A stretch of DNA of 64,000 nucleotides from Halococcus qingdaonensis (GTDB taxonomy: Archaea; Halobacteriota; Halobacteria; Halobacteriales; Halococcaceae). The position numbers and the translations under genes are program-made. Positions 6,456 through 62,382 of this stretch are shown here, one piece after another (position 1 is the first letter of the stretch; each line of letters begins with the position of its first letter). The notes under the pieces are model-generated. The model was not told the DNA's origin and did no database searches. It saw only the letters and a program-made list of their open reading frames with translations. The stretch is from assembly GCF_024508235.1 (NCBI RefSeq), contig NZ_CP101943.1, positions 1,771,112-1,835,111 of the forward strand. Direction: 5' to 3'.

Positions 6456-6494
6456 AGCGATAGATTGATCCCGGCGACAGCCGCCAACGCGAAC

Positions 6495-8057
6495 GTGGCT
6501 TCGAAGTGGTCGTCGAGTCGGCTGCGCGTCGATTGGCGAACGAGCATCGGTCTCGTCGGCACGGTCGTGAAGTATCTCTCGGCGACCCTGCTCATTCCGC
6601 TCGCGGTGGCGCTTTTCTACGGCCGTGACGTGCTGACGTTCGCCGTCGCGTTCGTCATCACCGTGATCGTCGGACTGGCGCTCGAACGCGTCGAACCCGA
6701 GCCCGATCTCGGCACGCGCGAGGGGTTCCTGATGGTCGCGCTCACGTGGCTCGTCGTCGCGCTCGTCGGTACCGTCCCCTATCTCCTCGCGGGGATGGGC
6801 ACCGGATCGACGCTCGCCCACCCGATCAACGCCCTCTTCGAGTCGATGAGCGGGTTCACGACGACCGGCGCGACGATGATGGGCGAGATATCGTTTACTC
6901 AGCACTCACACGCCCTCCTGCTCTGGCGACAGCTCACCCAGTGGCTCGGCGGCATGGGGATCGTCGTGCTCGCGGTCGCGATCCTCCCCGAACTCTCGGT
7001 CGGTGGCGCACAGCTGATGGACGCCGAAGCGCCCGGCCCCGGCATCGAGAAACTCACCCCGCGCATCGCCGAGACCGCACGCGTGCTCTGGCTGGTCTAT
7101 CTCGGCTTCACCGTCCTCGAAATGGTGCTGCTCTACGGGCTCCATCTCGGCGGTCTCGCGCCGAACATGGAGCTGTTCAACGCCGTCTCGCACGCGCTGA
7201 CGACGCTTCCCACGGGCGGGTTCTCGCCGGAAGCCCGCTCGATCGAAGCGTTCTCGGCGGCCGTCCAGTGGCTCATCATCCCGTTCATGATCGCCGCCGG
7301 TGCCAACTTCGCGCTGTTCTGGCACGCGCTCACCGGCAACCCGGAGAAACTGACAGAGGACACCGAGTTCCGGTCGTACGTCGGCGTCATCGGAGTGCTG
7401 ACGGCCGTCATCGCGGGCCTCCTCTTCACCGGTGCCGGCATCGAAACCGTCACCGACGCCGTCCCACCCATCATCGGACAGATCGAGGACGCGCTGCGTC
7501 ATGCCCTGTTCAACATCGTCTCCATCATCACGACCACCGGCTACGCCAACATGGACTTCACCACGTGGAGCGCACCAGCGAAGACGATCCTCCTCTTCGC
7601 GATGTTCATCGGCGGCTCGGCCGGCTCGACCGGCAGTGCGATCAAGATCATCCGCTGGGTGGTCATCGTCAAATCCCTCCGGCGCGAACTGTTTACGACC
7701 GTGCACCCCGAAGCGGTGTCGCCCGTCCGACTCGCCGGCCGCGTCATCGACGAGCGCGCCATCCGTGGCATCTACGCCTTCACGCTGCTCTACATCGGCC
7801 TCTTCGCCCTCGCCAGTCTCTTGATCGTCATCGACTCCTGGCGCGTCGGCTACACCATCTCCACACTCGAAGCCACGAGCGCCATCGCCTCGACCCTCGG
7901 CAACGTCGGCCCCGGCTTCGGCGCTGTCGGCCCGATGAACAACTACCTCGCCTTCCCGGCCAGCTCGAAACTGCTCATGACGTTCCTGATGTGGATCGGT
8001 CGGCTCGAAATCCTGCCCGTGCTCGTGCTGCTCACACCGTCCTACTGGCGTACCTAA
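6495..8057 (+). CDS. trkH: TrkH potassium transporter membrane subunit (second copy)
   Basis: About 520 residues with the same four-loop TrkH architecture as its upstream neighbour: SMSGFTTTGAT, LPTGGFSPE, ITTTGYANM and GNVGPGFG. The two copies align across their length but differ most after the third loop, where this one carries an extra segment around residue 320. I place the start at GTG 6495 because the N-terminus RVDWRTSIGLVGTV then aligns with RVDVRTSASLLGTV of the first copy. A TTG at 6465 would add ten residues. Sharing one TrkA suggests the two pores differ in affinity or coupling; this is inference. Confidence 0.9.
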   Translation: MASKWSSSRLRVDWRTSIGLVGTVVKYLSATLLIPLAVALFYGRDVLTFAVAFVITVIVGLALERVEPEPDLGTREGFLMVALTWLVVALVGTVPYLLAGMGTGSTLAHPINALFESMSGFTTTGATMMGEISFTQHSHALLLWRQLTQWLGGMGIVVLAVAILPELSVGGAQLMDAEAPGPGIEKLTPRIAETARVLWLVYLGFTVLEMVLLYGLHLGGLAPNMELFNAVSHALTTLPTGGFSPEARSIEAFSAAVQWLIIPFMIAAGANFALFWHALTGNPEKLTEDTEFRSYVGVIGVLTAVIAGLLFTGAGIETVTDAVPPIIGQIEDALRHALFNIVSIITTTGYANMDFTTWSAPAKTILLFAMFIGGSAGSTGSAIKIIRWVVIVKSLRRELFTTVHPEAVSPVRLAGRVIDERAIRGIYAFTLLYIGLFALASLLIVIDSWRVGYTISTLEATSAIASTLGNVGPGFGAVGPMNNYLAFPASSKLLMTFLMWIGRLEILPVLVLLTPSYWRT

Positions 8058-8061
8058 CACC

Positions 8062-8300
8062 CACTTTTTTACTCCTCGGGTGCGATCGCTCGTTTCACTC
8101 GCTCACGCACCACTCGTCGCAAAAACCTGGACTAAAAACGTCCGCTCGCTCGGCCTCCGGCCTCGCTCGCGGCGAACCGCGCTCGTTCCACTCTCGCGGA
8201 TACTGACGCTCCGCAATCGCACAGCACCGCACCGCCGAAGCCCTCGCGCTTCCTCCGGTCGCGCTCGCCCTTCATCCACCAGGGACCGCCAGCCGCACCG
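8062..8300 (+). repeat. Modular intergenic repeat, copy A
   Basis: The 291-base gap between trkH and the PIN-PilT-KH ATPase is filled by this element. Order: T-run CACTTTTTTAC (8062-8072), a GC hairpin region, the 20-mer core GCAAAAACCTGGACTAAAAA (8119-8138), a CTCGCT-rich hairpin region, a GAACCGCGCTCG segment, and the tail CGCCCTTCATCCACCAGG (8266-8283). Bases 8109-8150 are identical over 42 bp to 44374-44415. No convincing reading frame runs through it. The T-run directly after the trkH stop could also serve as its transcription terminator. The remaining bases to 8348 are GC-rich with nothing recognised. Confidence 0.8.
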
Positions 8301-11448: not shown

Positions 11449-12954
11449 ATGGCAACCGACGCCACGCAGACCGCTGCCCACGAGGAACTCCTCGATCGCT
11501 ACGAACGCATCTCGAACATCGAGGGCGCTGCGGGGATCCTCAACTGGGATCAGGAGGTGATGATGCCCGAGGGCGGCACGCCCGCGCGCTCAGCGCAGCT
11601 CTCGGCGCTGTCGGCGACGAGCCACGAACTCCTCACCGAGGAGGCGATGGGCGAGGCGCTCGATGCGGCCGAGAGCGCGGAGCTCACGGACGAGGAGGAC
11701 GCCGCCGTCCGCGAGATCCGCCGCCAGTACGAGCGCGCGACGCGCGTTCCCACCGAGCTCGTCGAGGAGATCTCGCGAACCACGAGCGAGGCGCTGCCGG
11801 TCTGGAAGGAGGCCAAAGCCGAGGACGATTTCTCGAAGTTCGCGCCCGTCCTGGAGGAACTAATCGATCTCAAGCGCGACTACGCCGAGCAGATCGACCC
11901 CGACCGGCCGGCCTACGAGGTGCTGTTCGAGGACTACGAACCCTACCTCGGGCTCGACACCGCCGAGCGGATCCTGGAGCGCCTGCGCGAGGAGCTCGTT
12001 CCGCTCATCGACGCTGTAGGTGAGAGCGATGTCGAACTCGCTAGTCCGTTCGCGGGTCAGTTCGATCCCGACACGCAGGAAGCACTCACGCGCGACGCGC
12101 TCGATACGTTGGGCTACGACTGGGACCGGGGTCGCCTCGACACCGCTCCGCATCCGTTCTCGATGGGCACCACCTTCGACGCGCGCGTGACGACGCGCTA
12201 CGAGGACGACGACATGCTCGGCGCGCTCACGAGCACGATCCACGAGTTCGGCCACGCGACCTACACACAGGGGCTGCCCGACGAGGAGTACGGGAGTCCG
12301 CTCGGCGAGAACCGGAACCTCTCGGTCCACGAATCCCAGTCGCGATTCTGGGAGAACCACGTCGGTCGCTCGGAGTCGTTCTGGTCGCTGTTTCTGCCCC
12401 ACGTCCGCGAGCAGTTCCCGGAACTCGACGGCGTGACGCCCCGCGACGCCTACGAGGCCGCCAATCGCGTCTACGATGACAACCCCATCCGGATCGAGGC
12501 CGACGAACTGACCTACCACATGCATATCGTCCTCCGATTCGAGATCGAGCGCGAGCTCATCGAGGGTGATCTCGACGTGAGCGAGGTCCCCAAAGTCTGG
12601 AACGACAGGATGGAGGAGTATCTCGGGGTCCGGCCCGACACCGACGCCGAGGGCTGTCTCCAGGACATCCACTGGTCGCACGGCTCGTTCGGCTATTTCC
12701 CGACGTACTCGCTCGGCAGCGTGCTCGCGGCCCAGTTGTACGCGAGCGCCGACGAGGAAATCGACGATCTCGACGGACAGATCGAGGCGGGCGAGTTCGG
12801 CCCGCTCCACGAGTGGCTCACCGAGAACGTCCATCAGCACGGTAAACGCTATACGACGCCCGATCTCATCGAAGAAGCCACCGGCGAAGCGTTCACTGCC
12901 GACTACTTTCTCGACTACGCGAGCGAAAAATACGGCGCGCTGTACGATCTCTGA
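11449..12954 (+). CDS. Carboxypeptidase Taq-type metallocarboxypeptidase (M32)
   Basis: 501 residues, the normal size of peptidase family M32. The zinc site is HEFGH at residues 265-269, preceded by STI and followed by ATYTQGLP; downstream sequences such as HESQSRFWENHVGRS are typical of the family. The opening LLDRYERISNIEGAAGILNWDQEVMMP (split here only as a description) is the family N-terminus. The enzyme cleaves C-terminal residues from peptides, probably in the cytoplasm since no signal peptide is seen. It follows the M20 peptidase by 25 nt, suggesting a joint role in peptide turnover. Confidence 0.93.
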   Translation: MATDATQTAAHEELLDRYERISNIEGAAGILNWDQEVMMPEGGTPARSAQLSALSATSHELLTEEAMGEALDAAESAELTDEEDAAVREIRRQYERATRVPTELVEEISRTTSEALPVWKEAKAEDDFSKFAPVLEELIDLKRDYAEQIDPDRPAYEVLFEDYEPYLGLDTAERILERLREELVPLIDAVGESDVELASPFAGQFDPDTQEALTRDALDTLGYDWDRGRLDTAPHPFSMGTTFDARVTTRYEDDDMLGALTSTIHEFGHATYTQGLPDEEYGSPLGENRNLSVHESQSRFWENHVGRSESFWSLFLPHVREQFPELDGVTPRDAYEAANRVYDDNPIRIEADELTYHMHIVLRFEIERELIEGDLDVSEVPKVWNDRMEEYLGVRPDTDAEGCLQDIHWSHGSFGYFPTYSLGSVLAAQLYASADEEIDDLDGQIEAGEFGPLHEWLTENVHQHGKRYTTPDLIEEATGEAFTADYFLDYASEKYGALYDL

Positions 12955-16007: not shown

Positions 16008-16393
16008 GGCGCGCGCTCGCGCTCGTGTGCGAGCAATAGCGAGCACCGAGCGCGGATCGGCGTGCGAGGGATGAGCGAGTGAGTGAAACGAACGAGCGAA
16101 TCGGTTGGGGAGGCGTGTGGGCTGTTGTTGTGCTGTGCGGTGGTTGTGGTAAGCGTCAGGCATCCGCGCGAGTGGAACGAGCGCGGTTCGCCGCGAGCGA
16201 ACGCAGTGAGCGAGCGGTCCTTTTTAGTCCAGGTTTTTGCGAGTAGCGAGGGACCGTCGGTCCCTCGTACCATGCGAGCGGGCCATGCGCGGCGCTACGC
16301 GCCGCGAGTTCGAGGCGGCGAAGCCGCCTCGCACGCCCGCGAGCAGAGAGTGGTAGCCGACCGCAGGGAGGCTACCCGACGAGTAAAAAAGTG
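16008..16393 (-). repeat. Modular intergenic repeat, copy D (mosaic)
   Basis: Fills the 417-base gap between ribE and ncsA. Read on the minus strand: T-run (GTAAAAAAGTG on plus, 16383-16393), hairpin modules including GGCGGCGAAGCCGCC near 16315 and GGGACCGTCGGTCCC near 16250, then the 20-mer core (16221-16240 on plus as TTTTTAGTCCAGGTTTTTGC), then GAACCGCGCTCG-like sequence. Instead of the usual CGCCCTTCATCC tail it continues into sequence shared with copy F: 16099-16126 matches 29476-29503 at 25 of 28 positions, and 16008-16032 matches 29639-29663 exactly (both as reverse complement). No gene is seen within it. Confidence 0.78.
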
Positions 16394-16413
16394 GGCCGTG
16401 AGTAGATCTCCCC

Positions 16414-43664: not shown

Positions 43665-44330
43665 ATGCGCATCGCACTCTGTGGCGGCACGGGCGATCTC
43701 GGGCGAGGGCTCGCCCTCCGGCTGACCCGCGACACCGATCACGAGGTCGTCGTCGGCTCGCGCGATCCCGAAAAAGCCCGCGAGCACGTCAGCGAGTACG
43801 AGGACGAACTCGGTAGTCACGACGTCGAGGGCGACATCAGCGGGTTCGACAACGCGATGGCCGCCGACCGCGCCGACGTCGTCGTTCTCTGCGTGCCGGC
43901 CTACCACCTCTCGGATACGATCGACGCGATCGAGGGGGGTCTCGACGACACAGTGCTCGTGAGCCCCGCCGTCGGCATGCGCCGCGAGGAGGGAACGATG
44001 AACTACAACCCACCCAGCGCGGGTAGCGTGACCGCACTCGCCGCCGCGGCCGCCCCGGACGACACCCCCGTGGTGGGAGCCTTCCACAACCTCGCGGCCG
44101 GCCGCCTCGCCGATCTCGACGCCACACTGGAGTGGGACGTGCTCGTCGTCGGCGACGATACCGACGCGAAGGCCACGGTCGAGCGCCTCGCCGACGGCAT
44201 CGACGGCATTCGCGCGCTCGATGCCGGCCCGCTCGCAGCCGCCAGCGAGGTCGAGAGTCTGACACCGCTGCTCATCAACGTCGCGACGAACAACGATTCC
44301 CTCGCCGATCTCGGCGTGTCCTTCAAGTGA
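43665..44330 (+). CDS. npdG: NADPH:F420 oxidoreductase
   Basis: 221 residues with a single Rossmann domain (LCGGTGDLGRGLALRL, glycine motif at 7-13, then GSRDP, whose Arg suits the NADP phosphate). The C-terminal region VGAFHNLAAGRLADLD and AASEVESLTPLLINVATNN are typical of F420-dependent NADP reductases. It transfers hydride between F420H2 and NADP+, so this organism should make F420. It is alone behind its own TATA box, and the modular repeat starts eight bases after its stop. Confidence 0.92.
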   Translation: MRIALCGGTGDLGRGLALRLTRDTDHEVVVGSRDPEKAREHVSEYEDELGSHDVEGDISGFDNAMAADRADVVVLCVPAYHLSDTIDAIEGGLDDTVLVSPAVGMRREEGTMNYNPPSAGSVTALAAAAAPDDTPVVGAFHNLAAGRLADLDATLEWDVLVVGDDTDAKATVERLADGIDGIRALDAGPLAAASEVESLTPLLINVATNNDSLADLGVSFK

Positions 44331-44338
44331 AGGACCTC

Positions 44339-44545
44339 CACTTTTTTACGACTCGGGTTCGCGCTCCGCGCGAACCACTCGTCGCAAAAACCTGGACTAA
44401 AAACGTCCGCTCGCTCCCTCGCTACGCTCGGTCACTCACGGTGAACCGCGCTCACTACGTTCGCGCGGACATACCGCCTCCGCACAGCACCGCAGAAGCC
44501 CTCAGCCGCTCGCTTCATTCGCGGCTTCGCCCTTCATCCACCAGG
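44339..44545 (+). repeat. Modular intergenic repeat, copy B
   Basis: Occupies most of the 360-base gap 44331-44690. Order as in copy A: T-run CACTTTTTTAC (44339-44349), hairpin TTCGCGCTCCGCGCGAA region, core GCAAAAACCTGGACTAAAAA (44384-44403), CTCGCT-rich hairpins, GAACCGCGCTC, a CGCCTCCGCACAGCACCGCA stretch, and tail CGCCCTTCATCCACCAGG (44528-44545). Bases 44374-44415 are identical over 42 bp to copy A, but the hairpin arms differ. From 44546 to 44660 a GC-rich tail with CCGGCGGCCGGCGG repeats follows, with no gene seen. Confidence 0.8.
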
Positions 44546-55481: not shown

Positions 55482-55691
55482 CCTGGTGGATGAAGGGCGA
55501 GCATCCCGAAGGGATGCGAGGGCTTCAGCGGAGGCGGTGCGGTTGCGGAAAGGTCGATGTCCGCGCGAGCGCAGTGAGCGCGGTTCACCGTGAGCGAGCG
55601 AAGCGAGTGAACGGCTCTTTTTAGTCCAGGTTTTTGCACGGGGTTCGAGCGAGCGCCGGAGGCGCGAGCGAGGACTCCGTGTAAAAAGTGG
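55482..55691 (-). repeat. Modular intergenic repeat, copy C
   Basis: Lies in the 437-base gap 55299-55735 between divergent otsA and uvrA. On the minus strand: T-run (GTAAAAAGTGG on plus at 55681-55691), a hairpin of CTCGCTCG type (55640-55670 region), the 20-mer core (plus TTTTTAGTCCAGGTTTTTGC, 55618-55637), a GTTCACTCGCTTCGCTCGCTC hairpin region, GAACCGCGCTC, and the tail (plus CCTGGTGGATGAAGGGCG, 55482-55499). The remainder of the gap, 55299-55481, has only otsA promoter sequence and GC-rich sequence (CCGCGGTGGCGGCGCGG) with no gene seen. Confidence 0.8.
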
Positions 55692-55735
55692 GGAATCGAC
55701 AGGGTTTCACGGCCCGCGCTCCCGACTAGGCATCA

Positions 55736-61491: not shown

Positions 61492-62109
61492 ATGTTCGAT
61501 GGACGTCCCGACCGGGACGCGGAAGTCGTCTTCTGTGGTCGCTCGAACGTAGGGAAATCGACCATCCTCCGGGAGCTCACCGGCCACGATTTCGAGACCG
61601 GCAAGAAACCGGGCGTGACCCGCTCTCCGGGCCACTACGACTGGGTGGCCGAGGACTTCGTTCTCACCGACCTGCCGGGATTCGGCTTCATGTCCGGCGT
61701 CGAGGAGGAGCGCCGCGAGGCGATCAAAACCGACATCGTCCGCTATCTCGAAACGAACAGCGAGAAGATCCTCGTCGGCGTTCTCGTCATCGACGCCAAC
61801 AGCGCCGTCGACATCATCGACCGCCACACCGACCGCGACGAAATCCCTCACGACGTCGAACTGTTCGGCTTCCTCGCCGACATCGACATCCCCACCGTGG
61901 TCGCGGTCAACAAGATGGACAAGGTCGACGACCGCGACGAGCGCCTCGACGCACTCTGCGACCGCCTCGGTCTCCCCTCACCGTGGCAGCAGTGGCAGGA
62001 CACCGTCGCCCCCATCAGTGCCAAACGTGGCTCGATCGGCCCGCTGACCGACGCCGTTCGCACCCACCTCCACGAGCAAAACCGCGACGACCTGTTCAAA
62101 TTCTTCTGA
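61492..62109 (+). CDS. engB: GTP-binding protein EngB
   Basis: 205 residues. GTPase motifs: G1 GRSNVGKST (16-24), G3 DLPGFGFM near 62, G4 [12 protein letters not shown] near 140, with SPGHYDW and G5 ISAKRGSIG. The family (YsxC/EngB) acts in large ribosomal subunit assembly in bacteria; archaeal members are conserved in haloarchaea. ATG 61492 follows a TATAAAT box with leaderless spacing. The modular repeat begins two bases after its stop, so the T-run there may also end transcription. Confidence 0.94.
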
Positions 62110-62111
62110 CG

Positions 62112-62382
62112 CACCTTTTTACTGCGGAGGGTGCGCTCCCTCGCGGTGCTCGGTCGCGCACCCCCGTCTGCTCACGGGCGGCGAAGCCGCCCGTTCGCAC
62201 GGCCAGCGGGACCTTCGGTCCCGCTCGGCTTGCAAAAATCTGCACCAAAAACTCCTGCTCGCAAACCGCGCGAGCAGTGAACCGCGCTCGTTTCACTCGC
62301 GCGGACATCGCCCGTCTCCACCGCACCGCCGAAGCCCTCGGCTACTCGCTTCGCTCGTAGCCTCGCCCTTCATCCGCCAAGG
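62112..62382 (+). repeat. Modular intergenic repeat, copy E (degenerate core plus double-hairpin module)
   Basis: Fills most of the 321-base gap 62110-62430. T-run CACCTTTTTAC (62112-62122), a hairpin GGGTGCGC...GCGCACCC, the 65-bp module (62166-62230) shared with copy F, a degenerate core GCAAAAATCTGCACCAAAAA (62232-62251), then GAACCGCGCTCG, and tail CGCCCTTCATCCGCCAAGG (62364-62382). Core-to-tail spacing is 132 nt against 138-147 in the other copies. No gene is seen in it or in the last 48 bases. Confidence 0.78.

Follow-up and report, generated by a model that had tools for sequence, protein, structure and literature searches.

How transcription ends in dense archaeal genomes, particularly where genes converge, is a matter of ongoing research; to our knowledge, hairpins are not an established part of archaeal terminators. 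Dispersed imperfect palindromes that lie after genes and carry mismatches on one strand are familiar from the bacterial REP/BIME and terminator-like repeats, and SINE-type retroposons combine target duplications of variable length with one constant and one variable end. For Haloferax volcanii, the accessible part of the study concerned reports that T-stretches terminate transcription, with 95% for T5C in a reporter, and that hairpins stand upstream of some ends, which do not correspond to the element presented here (PMC7237163). The PATE and SMR repeats of Haloquadratum walsbyi are, according to the accessible part of the report, haloarchaeal, short, non-coding, palindromic and present in many copies; the SMRs measure ~110 bp and insert into palindromes, the PATE palindromes resemble IS605-type ends, and both families are described there without target duplications (PMC3119063).

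The element analysed here shares with archaeal U-tract terminators, as portrayed in the accessible text, a run of T5-6 soon after the stop codon (PMC7237163). In contrast to these terminators its tract forms the foot of a long covarying hairpin common to a terminator-like signal for the opposite strand, and the whole unit is repeated and mobile. Compared with REP/BIME repeats, it is order-wide in archaea, possesses T/A-tract feet with a covarying triplet and is associated with long target duplications of variable length. The traits listed above for PATEs and SMRs are common to the element, and the SMR insertion into palindromes resembles hairpins that are nested within it; however, in contrast to what is reported in that part of the source, duplications of 32-227 bp abut 13 of 60 distant copies, and the single Y1 transposase locus of the own genome that was examined revealed no link of the IS605 type (PMC3119063). 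An order-wide, countable and structurally constrained element at gene ends provides concrete sequences for testing.

The window, i.e. the whole stretch of 64,000 nucleotides that was analysed, contains two places for which the original prediction had claimed an identity over 42 bp (8109-8150 and 44374-44415) next to differing hairpins. Both statements were borne out by the sequences: the exact match even extends by one base to 43 bp (8109-8151 and 44374-44416, + strand) and the adjoining hairpins differ. Beyond this block no exact repeat of 24 bp or more is common to both places. A 34-bp probe taken from the block found two matches in the window at up to three mismatches, as compared with none in 100 dinucleotide shuffles. 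As a two-copy match the block is real, but it belongs to a dispersed family with five copies in the window (starting at 8060, 16164, 44337, 55618 and 62110) and at least 46 matches in the 2.70-Mb one-contig genome, obtained by blastn with a 161-bp query (40 of 131 candidates scored). A covariance model yielded at least 49 matches in the same genome (150 of 4403 candidates scored), and a loose core pattern was found at 38 places versus 7 for the reversed control. The block is the 3' foot of a hairpin (hairpin 1) of a non-coding element of ~70-230 bp from Halobacteriales.

Read on the strand of the upstream gene, the stop codon is followed by a triplet (mostly CCA), T5-6, the left arm, loop and right arm of hairpin 1, AAAAA, CCTGGACT or a variant, a second AAAAA, hairpin 2 and hairpin 3. 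The element is often closed by a right-end module AGCCCTC-hairpin-TTCATCC[AG]CC; among 40 own copies, i.e. those of the genome that harbours the window, AGCCCTC is present in 31 and TTCATCCACC in 22. The form AGCCCTC-hairpin-TTCATCC[AG]CCAGG lies behind most own copies (e.g. 8239-8283, 44497-44545), and in several others an unrelated module, CCACATxCCTCCCCAACCGATTCGCTC, takes the place of the right-end module.

In the following, the strand given for a whole copy is the one bearing its G·A mismatches. Copy 1 (8060-8283, − strand) was delimited by a match of the covariance model R1 (8060-8138), the blastn query region and the right-end module. Its CCA (8061-8063, + strand) represents the 5' side of the outer helix and pairs with TGG at 8128-8130, and its T6 run (8065-8070, + strand), a putative terminator for + transcripts, begins 8 nt past the end of the gene at 6465-8057. 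According to the fold and the R1 alignment, this run pairs with A5 at 8121-8125 within hairpin 1 (8065-8125, − strand). The 43-bp block comprises the right arm of this hairpin, A5, CCTGGACT, A5 and the start of hairpin 2. On the − strand, the core AAAAA-CCTGGACT-AAAAA (8121-8138) reads as two U5 tracts (UUUUUAGUCCAGGUUUUU) right after hairpin 2 (8142-8172, − strand), whose tandem G·A mismatches on the − strand were derived from the fold and the mismatch analysis. Hairpin 3 (8177-8199, − strand), assigned by sequence and hairpin 3 class, and the module AGCCCTC-hairpin-TTCATCCACCAGG (8239-8283, − strand) follow.

Copy 2 (44337-44545, − strand; R1 match 44337-44403 and right-end module) is built in the same order. 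Its CCA (44338-44340, + strand) pairs with TGG at 44393-44395, the T6 run (44342-44347, + strand) begins 12 nt past the end of the gene at 43665-44330, and hairpin 1 (44342-44390, − strand; fold and R1 alignment) leads to the core A5-CCTGGACT-A5 (44386-44403, − strand; from the sequence). The hairpin 2 region (44407-44441, − strand) was placed by sequence, a single-sequence fold pairing only part of it, and hairpin 3 (44446-44468) reads GCGC-GA-AC-loop-GT-GA-GCGC on the − strand according to the fold and a stem-loop scan. Between hairpins 2 and 3 a linker GTGAACC or GCGAACC (e.g. 8166-8184, 44437-44452) joins two half-stems, which may form an alternative hairpin CGCGG-UUC[AG]-CCG[CU]G (− strand) competing with both. 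Copy 3 (55618-55692, + strand) consists of hairpin 1 and core (R1 E 3.5e-12; blastn). Copy 4 (62110-62251, − strand; R1 E 1.4e-4 and sequence) begins at the base that follows the stop codon TGA at 62107-62109, has an outer helix of GCA (62111-62113) and TGC (62241-62243) and carries extra hairpins inserted into hairpin 1. Copy 5 (16164-16395, + strand), recognised by blastn, sequence and a weak R1 match (16221-16282, E 0.094), presents hairpin 3, hairpin 2, the core and a hairpin 1 that nested hairpins interrupt.

Conservation was determined position by position over 37 of the 40 own copies, the other three (1915860, 920069 and 865781) having no core that matches the regular expression at the anchor. 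Both A5 runs reach 2.0 bits, CCTGGACT 0.8-2.0 bits and the start of the next hairpin 1.3-2.0 bits, as compared with mostly less than 1 bit in the arms. Conservation is concentrated in the block, as predicted, but extends beyond its 42 bp. The sharp border between core and arms is partly a result of sampling: the hairpins do diverge, but the two copies share a right-arm hairpin type, ACCACTCGTCGC, which is absent from most other own copies displayed. A conserved core with changing arms is an apt description, except that the core itself varies within the same genome, where GCTACGC, TCTGGACC, C[CT]TCGACT, CGTTCATG and TGTTCATC are each accompanied upstream by the triplet that fits.

The core is a helix foot, and a change in the core goes along with a change in the triplet ahead of the T-run. 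In the own genome the triplet/core pairs are CCA/TGG, GTA/TAC, CGA/TCG and GAA/TTC; other families add GGA/TCC, GCA/TGC and CAA/TTG, and GCA/TGC is also found in the window copy at 62110. The outer triplet pairs without exception in 67 distinct copies from the own genome and the pattern-selected loci; in the 43 loci of the latter kind the variety of the core is uninformative, because they were chosen by the exact core pattern. For the 60 distant copies (L089-L148, the best-scoring ones listed and not a random sample) the triplet was readable in 57 and unreadable in 3. It is paired in 51 of the 57, with seven triplet types, against a permutation mean of 16.3 and a maximum of 27 in 10,000, and unpaired in six, some of them owing to the register of a six-base T-run. 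Since R1 rewards pairing, the pairing of these 60 R1-found copies was partly selected for, a bias of which the blastn-found own copies are free.

In an alignment of 70 copies, 78.9% of the cells were paired compared to 68.7% after shuffling, with 0 of 500 shuffles reaching the observed value, and 146 double-change cells were counted versus 63.8 in the shuffles, all 500 of which were exceeded; the tested structure was written by hand, which leans both counts towards it. Sliding the register by 1-3 columns lowered the pairing from 78.9% to 43-52%. RNAalifold on the raw MAFFT alignment of the 70 copies returned 0 pairs and no consensus structure, an outcome that probably reflects arms too diverse to be aligned by sequence only. 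The suggestion that the core is bound or base-paired by something is thus correct in that TGG and the first A5 pair, covarying, with the preceding triplet and T-run of the same element, but nothing in these data points to a trans-acting RNA or protein partner.

The covariance model R1 was applied to other genomes. Of 243 Halobacteriales genomes, 208 had a match at E<=1e-3 and at least 161 at E<1e-6, the latter counted by hand from a list with up to 20 places scored per genome. Outside the order, 23 of 163 genomes (G243-G405; the placement of all 163 was deduced from sorting, 129 unmatched ones being unlisted) matched at E<=1e-3, with a best E of 5.5e-6 and listed places only 35-38 nt long. This threshold was therefore considered too loose and E<1e-6 was adopted, at which 0 of the 163 matched. 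As judged by this model, the element family spans the order Halobacteriales. Named carriers are Halococcus morrhuae, H. thailandensis, Halorientalis salina, Halomarina halobia and two MAGs. Seven further blastn matches lie on plasmids of Halorientalis marina, Natronococcus, Natrinema (two), Natronobeatus, Haloterrigena turkmenica and Halomicrobium urmianum; in the incomplete gene table there is no annotated feature beneath any of them and no annotated or called same-strand gene end within 100 nt before the element. Several of the plasmid copies L229, L231-L233 and L235 have a common short upstream sequence type, (C)ACTACAC-TGC, away from called gene ends and are possibly part of another mobile element. 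Viral contigs gave 0 matches to the exact pattern, and phage records no match to the element. In a scan of the window against Rfam 15 only two tRNAs reached the gathering threshold and no family did so at the element, and a literature search, judged by titles and abstract starts, brought up no description of the element that we recognised. Annotation would gain at the plasmid matches, which have no listed feature, as well as at the window element, which has no Rfam family at threshold.

In order to place the copies relative to genes, gene calls were made with a home-made codon model instead of an annotation, and tRNAs were added by hand. A same-strand gene lies to the left in 28 of the 39 own copies with a called left neighbour and in 53 of the 60 distant copies. 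In 38 of these 53 the T-run starts 3-11 nt past the stop codon, in analogy to the T5 or longer tract that archaeal U-tract terminators show soon after the stop. At L034, L128 and L148 (one of them own) no more than 2 nt separate the start of the element from the 3' end of a tRNA. At L092 and L096 it borders on a tRNA-3'-like sequence, and the intact tRNA (Lys, Ser) lies over 100 nt upstream of that, which may be a further kind of duplication of a target end. The seven plasmid copies depart from this placement at gene ends. Convergent gene pairs are enriched: they surround 15 of the 39 own copies (Fisher 0.02) and 32 of the 59 distant ones (Fisher 1.5e-5), as compared with 12 of 69 adjacent gene pairs of the window. 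In 13 of 39 own and 21 of 59 distant copies both neighbours run in + direction, leaving the G·A strand unread by any called neighbour, so that a second terminator would act on antisense RNA only. The element keeps its place behind the same stop codon, in at least one case even between genera (1110197 versus L084, with 83.5% identity of the left flank). For own 2197584 and L077, the H. morrhuae ortholog of the gene end is without the element; another gene is located there, apparently followed by the element.

Taken together, we regard the element as probably a mobile, structured, bidirectional transcription-terminator-like element. The computation itself shows the family with its structure and strand asymmetry, the location behind stop codons, the exchange of hairpins, and copies with target repeats whose sites are element-free in relatives. 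The terminator function, as the weakest link, is what we infer here, along with termination as the reason for retention and the copying route. If it is both terminator and mobile, regulatory 3' ends in Halobacteriales would be distributed by insertion.

Mobility is indicated by direct repeats of 32-227 bp, 84-100% identical, which abut the element in 13 of the 60 distant copies, the left repeat ending 2-7 nt before it. Abutting repeats were found at 3 of 396 shifted positions (Fisher 4e-10 against 13/60) and at 1 of 47 other gene ends; when repeats anywhere are counted, the numbers are 13 of 60 distant copies versus 23 of 396 and 3 of 47, respectively. Flanking repeats are missing from all 40 own copies. 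In all 13 cases the repeat includes sequence from the 3' end of the right gene, a gene read on the G·A strand, and one junction is nearly constant, the other one varying from 0 to 57 nt beyond the core. L102 turned out to be a tandem duplication containing a second, truncated element, so not all 13 cases are simple insertions.

At the three sites examined (L122, L144 and L126) the copies are flanked by target repeats, and relatives exist without the element. For L122, three of five genomes searched (G100, G224 and G148) possess a single gene end and no element, and in the subject the two BLAST matches have 55-64 bp in common; the site is filled in G206. For L144, 13 genomes were searched and five congeners read: G145 exhibits a 31-bp overlap, and G042, G102, G089 and G135 are likewise without the element. 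For L126, with 26 genomes searched and five subjects compared, the element is absent in G088 and G158 and present with the repeat in G213. The site in G408 retains a hairpin-2-like piece and a second repeat without hairpin 1, which looks like a remnant after later loss of hairpin 1 and not like an empty site. At L126 and in most L144 congeners the element-free state is read from absence and spacing, not from an exact single-copy overlap. R1 matched the filled loci L149, L150, L169, L199 and L201 and had no match at the eleven loci interpreted as empty or remnant.

Repeats of variable length and one constant end suggest target-primed reverse transcription, in which respect the element resembles SINE-type retroposons. 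The reverse transcriptase RVT_1 (PF00078), however, was found in 0 of 16 host genomes, the same search being positive in 3 of 14 control genomes; consequently, retroposition was dropped as the leading idea. The own genome holds a single match to a Y1 transposase, at a locus of 3.3 kb that has no core or R1 match and is IS200/605-like by its sequence. Mobilisation by IS200/605 or by the Y1 enzymes of RAYT type associated with REP repeats was therefore abandoned as the leading idea, there being this one Y1 gene with the element not near it, and was kept as a rival.

Insertion with target duplication, element-free relatives and insertions nested within the hairpin would also suit a selfish non-autonomous mobile element (MITE, PATE or REP-like) that has no host function, does little harm after stop codons and whose hairpins are read as single-stranded DNA by a transposase; a structure on one strand is what a single-strand-specific transposase would presumably select. 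We consider such an element rather unlikely, since the T-run start is confined to a narrower range behind the stop codon (3-11 nt in 38 of 53) than insertion tolerance would need, at least one orthologous gene end has the element in two genera and the sole Y1 match in the window's genome is devoid of core and R1 matches. Furthermore, duplications varying between 32 and 227 bp differ from the fixed short duplication of MITEs, and PATEs are, in the accessible part of the report, without target duplication (PMC3119063).

The hairpins are imperfect in a strand-specific manner. Mismatches were counted with a stem aligner that treats both strands alike, and the strand bearing G·A is antisense to the upstream gene. 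G·A versus C·T mismatches amounted to 327 versus 14 in hairpin 1 (74 copies), 197 versus 0 in hairpin 2 (70 copies) and 109 versus 2 in hairpin 3 (59 copies), and to 200 versus 10 in the 60 distant copies; shared descent of the copies inflates these counts, the flanking pairs nonetheless differing among types. Isolated tandem mismatches were of the kind GA/GA in 230 and 75 cases in two sets (305 in total), mostly in the context CGAG, and of the kind TC/TC in 0 and 0. An excess of G·T over A·C points the same way (102 versus 14 in hairpin 1). Tandem G·A pairs are stable in single-stranded RNA or DNA. According to RNAfold, the G·A strand forms the more stable hairpin 1 in 74 of 74 near and 60 of 60 distant copies, and for the part behind the core it folds more stably in 70 of 74 near copies; copies without a standard core or T-run were omitted from the fold, mismatch and triplet tables (74 of 83 kept in the fold, 70 distinct copies in the core table). 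Among the stem-loops of the window, 20 contain GA/GA, nine of them intergenic, compared to 0-1 intergenic for each of eight other mismatch kinds.

The much better folding of the G·A strand and the compensatory changes would fit a structured RNA element of the 3' untranslated region with a role in protecting or processing transcript ends, or else a small RNA transcribed from the G·A strand. Such an RNA appears improbable, as the G·A strand is not read by any called neighbour in the ++ neighbourhoods, the T-run a few nt past the stop would end the + transcript ahead of the hairpin and no Rfam family save the two tRNAs reached the threshold in the window. A double-stranded DNA palindrome bound by a protein, e.g. 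a chromosome-organising or replication factor, would explain the conserved A/T tracts at fixed spacing and the near-perfect palindromes of some copies (e.g. 2173409), but is very improbable, because a double-stranded site is not expected to sense the strand bias of the mismatches and because the sequence is free to vary provided that pairing holds.

For the mobile two-way terminator, we propose the following course. On the + strand, T5-6 a few nt past the stop codon would serve as an archaeal-type terminator tract for the upstream gene. On the other strand a predicted hairpin 2 containing G·A is followed after a few nt by UUUUU-AGUCCAGG-UUUUU, i.e. by the arrangement of a G+C-rich stem-loop and U-tract known from bacterial-type intrinsic terminators, so that opposite transcripts may also meet a terminator. 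Hairpin 1 would be the palindromic overlap of both signals, pairing T-run with A-run and outer triplet with core. A two-way terminator would be most useful between convergent genes and could block antisense RNA in tandem settings as well. Each insertion at a gene end would give rise to a new copy and duplicate a long, variable part of the target gene's 3' end, so that the gene itself stays intact; resident copies trade hairpins with other copies. Candidate copying routes are template switching at stalled forks or a single-strand transposase reading the G·A hairpins; if the element is both terminator and mobile, the long target duplications point to an unfamiliar route. Tentatively, and as a possibility that we would not yet call probable, the family could represent a self-spreading class of terminators in Halobacteriales: a structured unit is copied to gene 3' ends, often convergent ones, by a DNA-level process without reverse transcriptase, duplicates the gene end, then acts as two-way terminator and has its hairpins swapped between loci.

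The trade of hairpins was followed at 24 ortholog pairs of gene ends from the own genome, H. morrhuae and H. thailandensis. The flanks are 94% identical, hairpin 1 on average 72% and random pairs 65%, and in 21 of the 24 pairs hairpin 1 is nearer to a non-orthologous copy. Whole hairpins are replaced by other discrete types at the same gene end, which agrees with the original view that the pattern is unlike simple duplication drift. The exchange covers both arms, joined in some cases by the core along with its triplet, e.g. at 11957, where CGA/TCG here corresponds to CCA/TGG in both relatives.

Extra hairpins nested inside hairpin 1 or the core were noticed in the window at 16240-16345 and 62163-62230, at L081 (the ortholog of 1915860) and in the own copy 920069. 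They reuse units such as CTGCTCACGGGCG..CGCCCGTTCGCACGG and may, by analogy with the SMRs of Haloquadratum, constitute a second small mobile family targeting the palindrome of the element. At ~1433-1503 of L014, finally, a hairpin of ~14 G followed by ~15 C lies beside a tRNA 3'-half-like sequence (GGGATTTGAACCC), where ARAGORN finds no intact tRNA.
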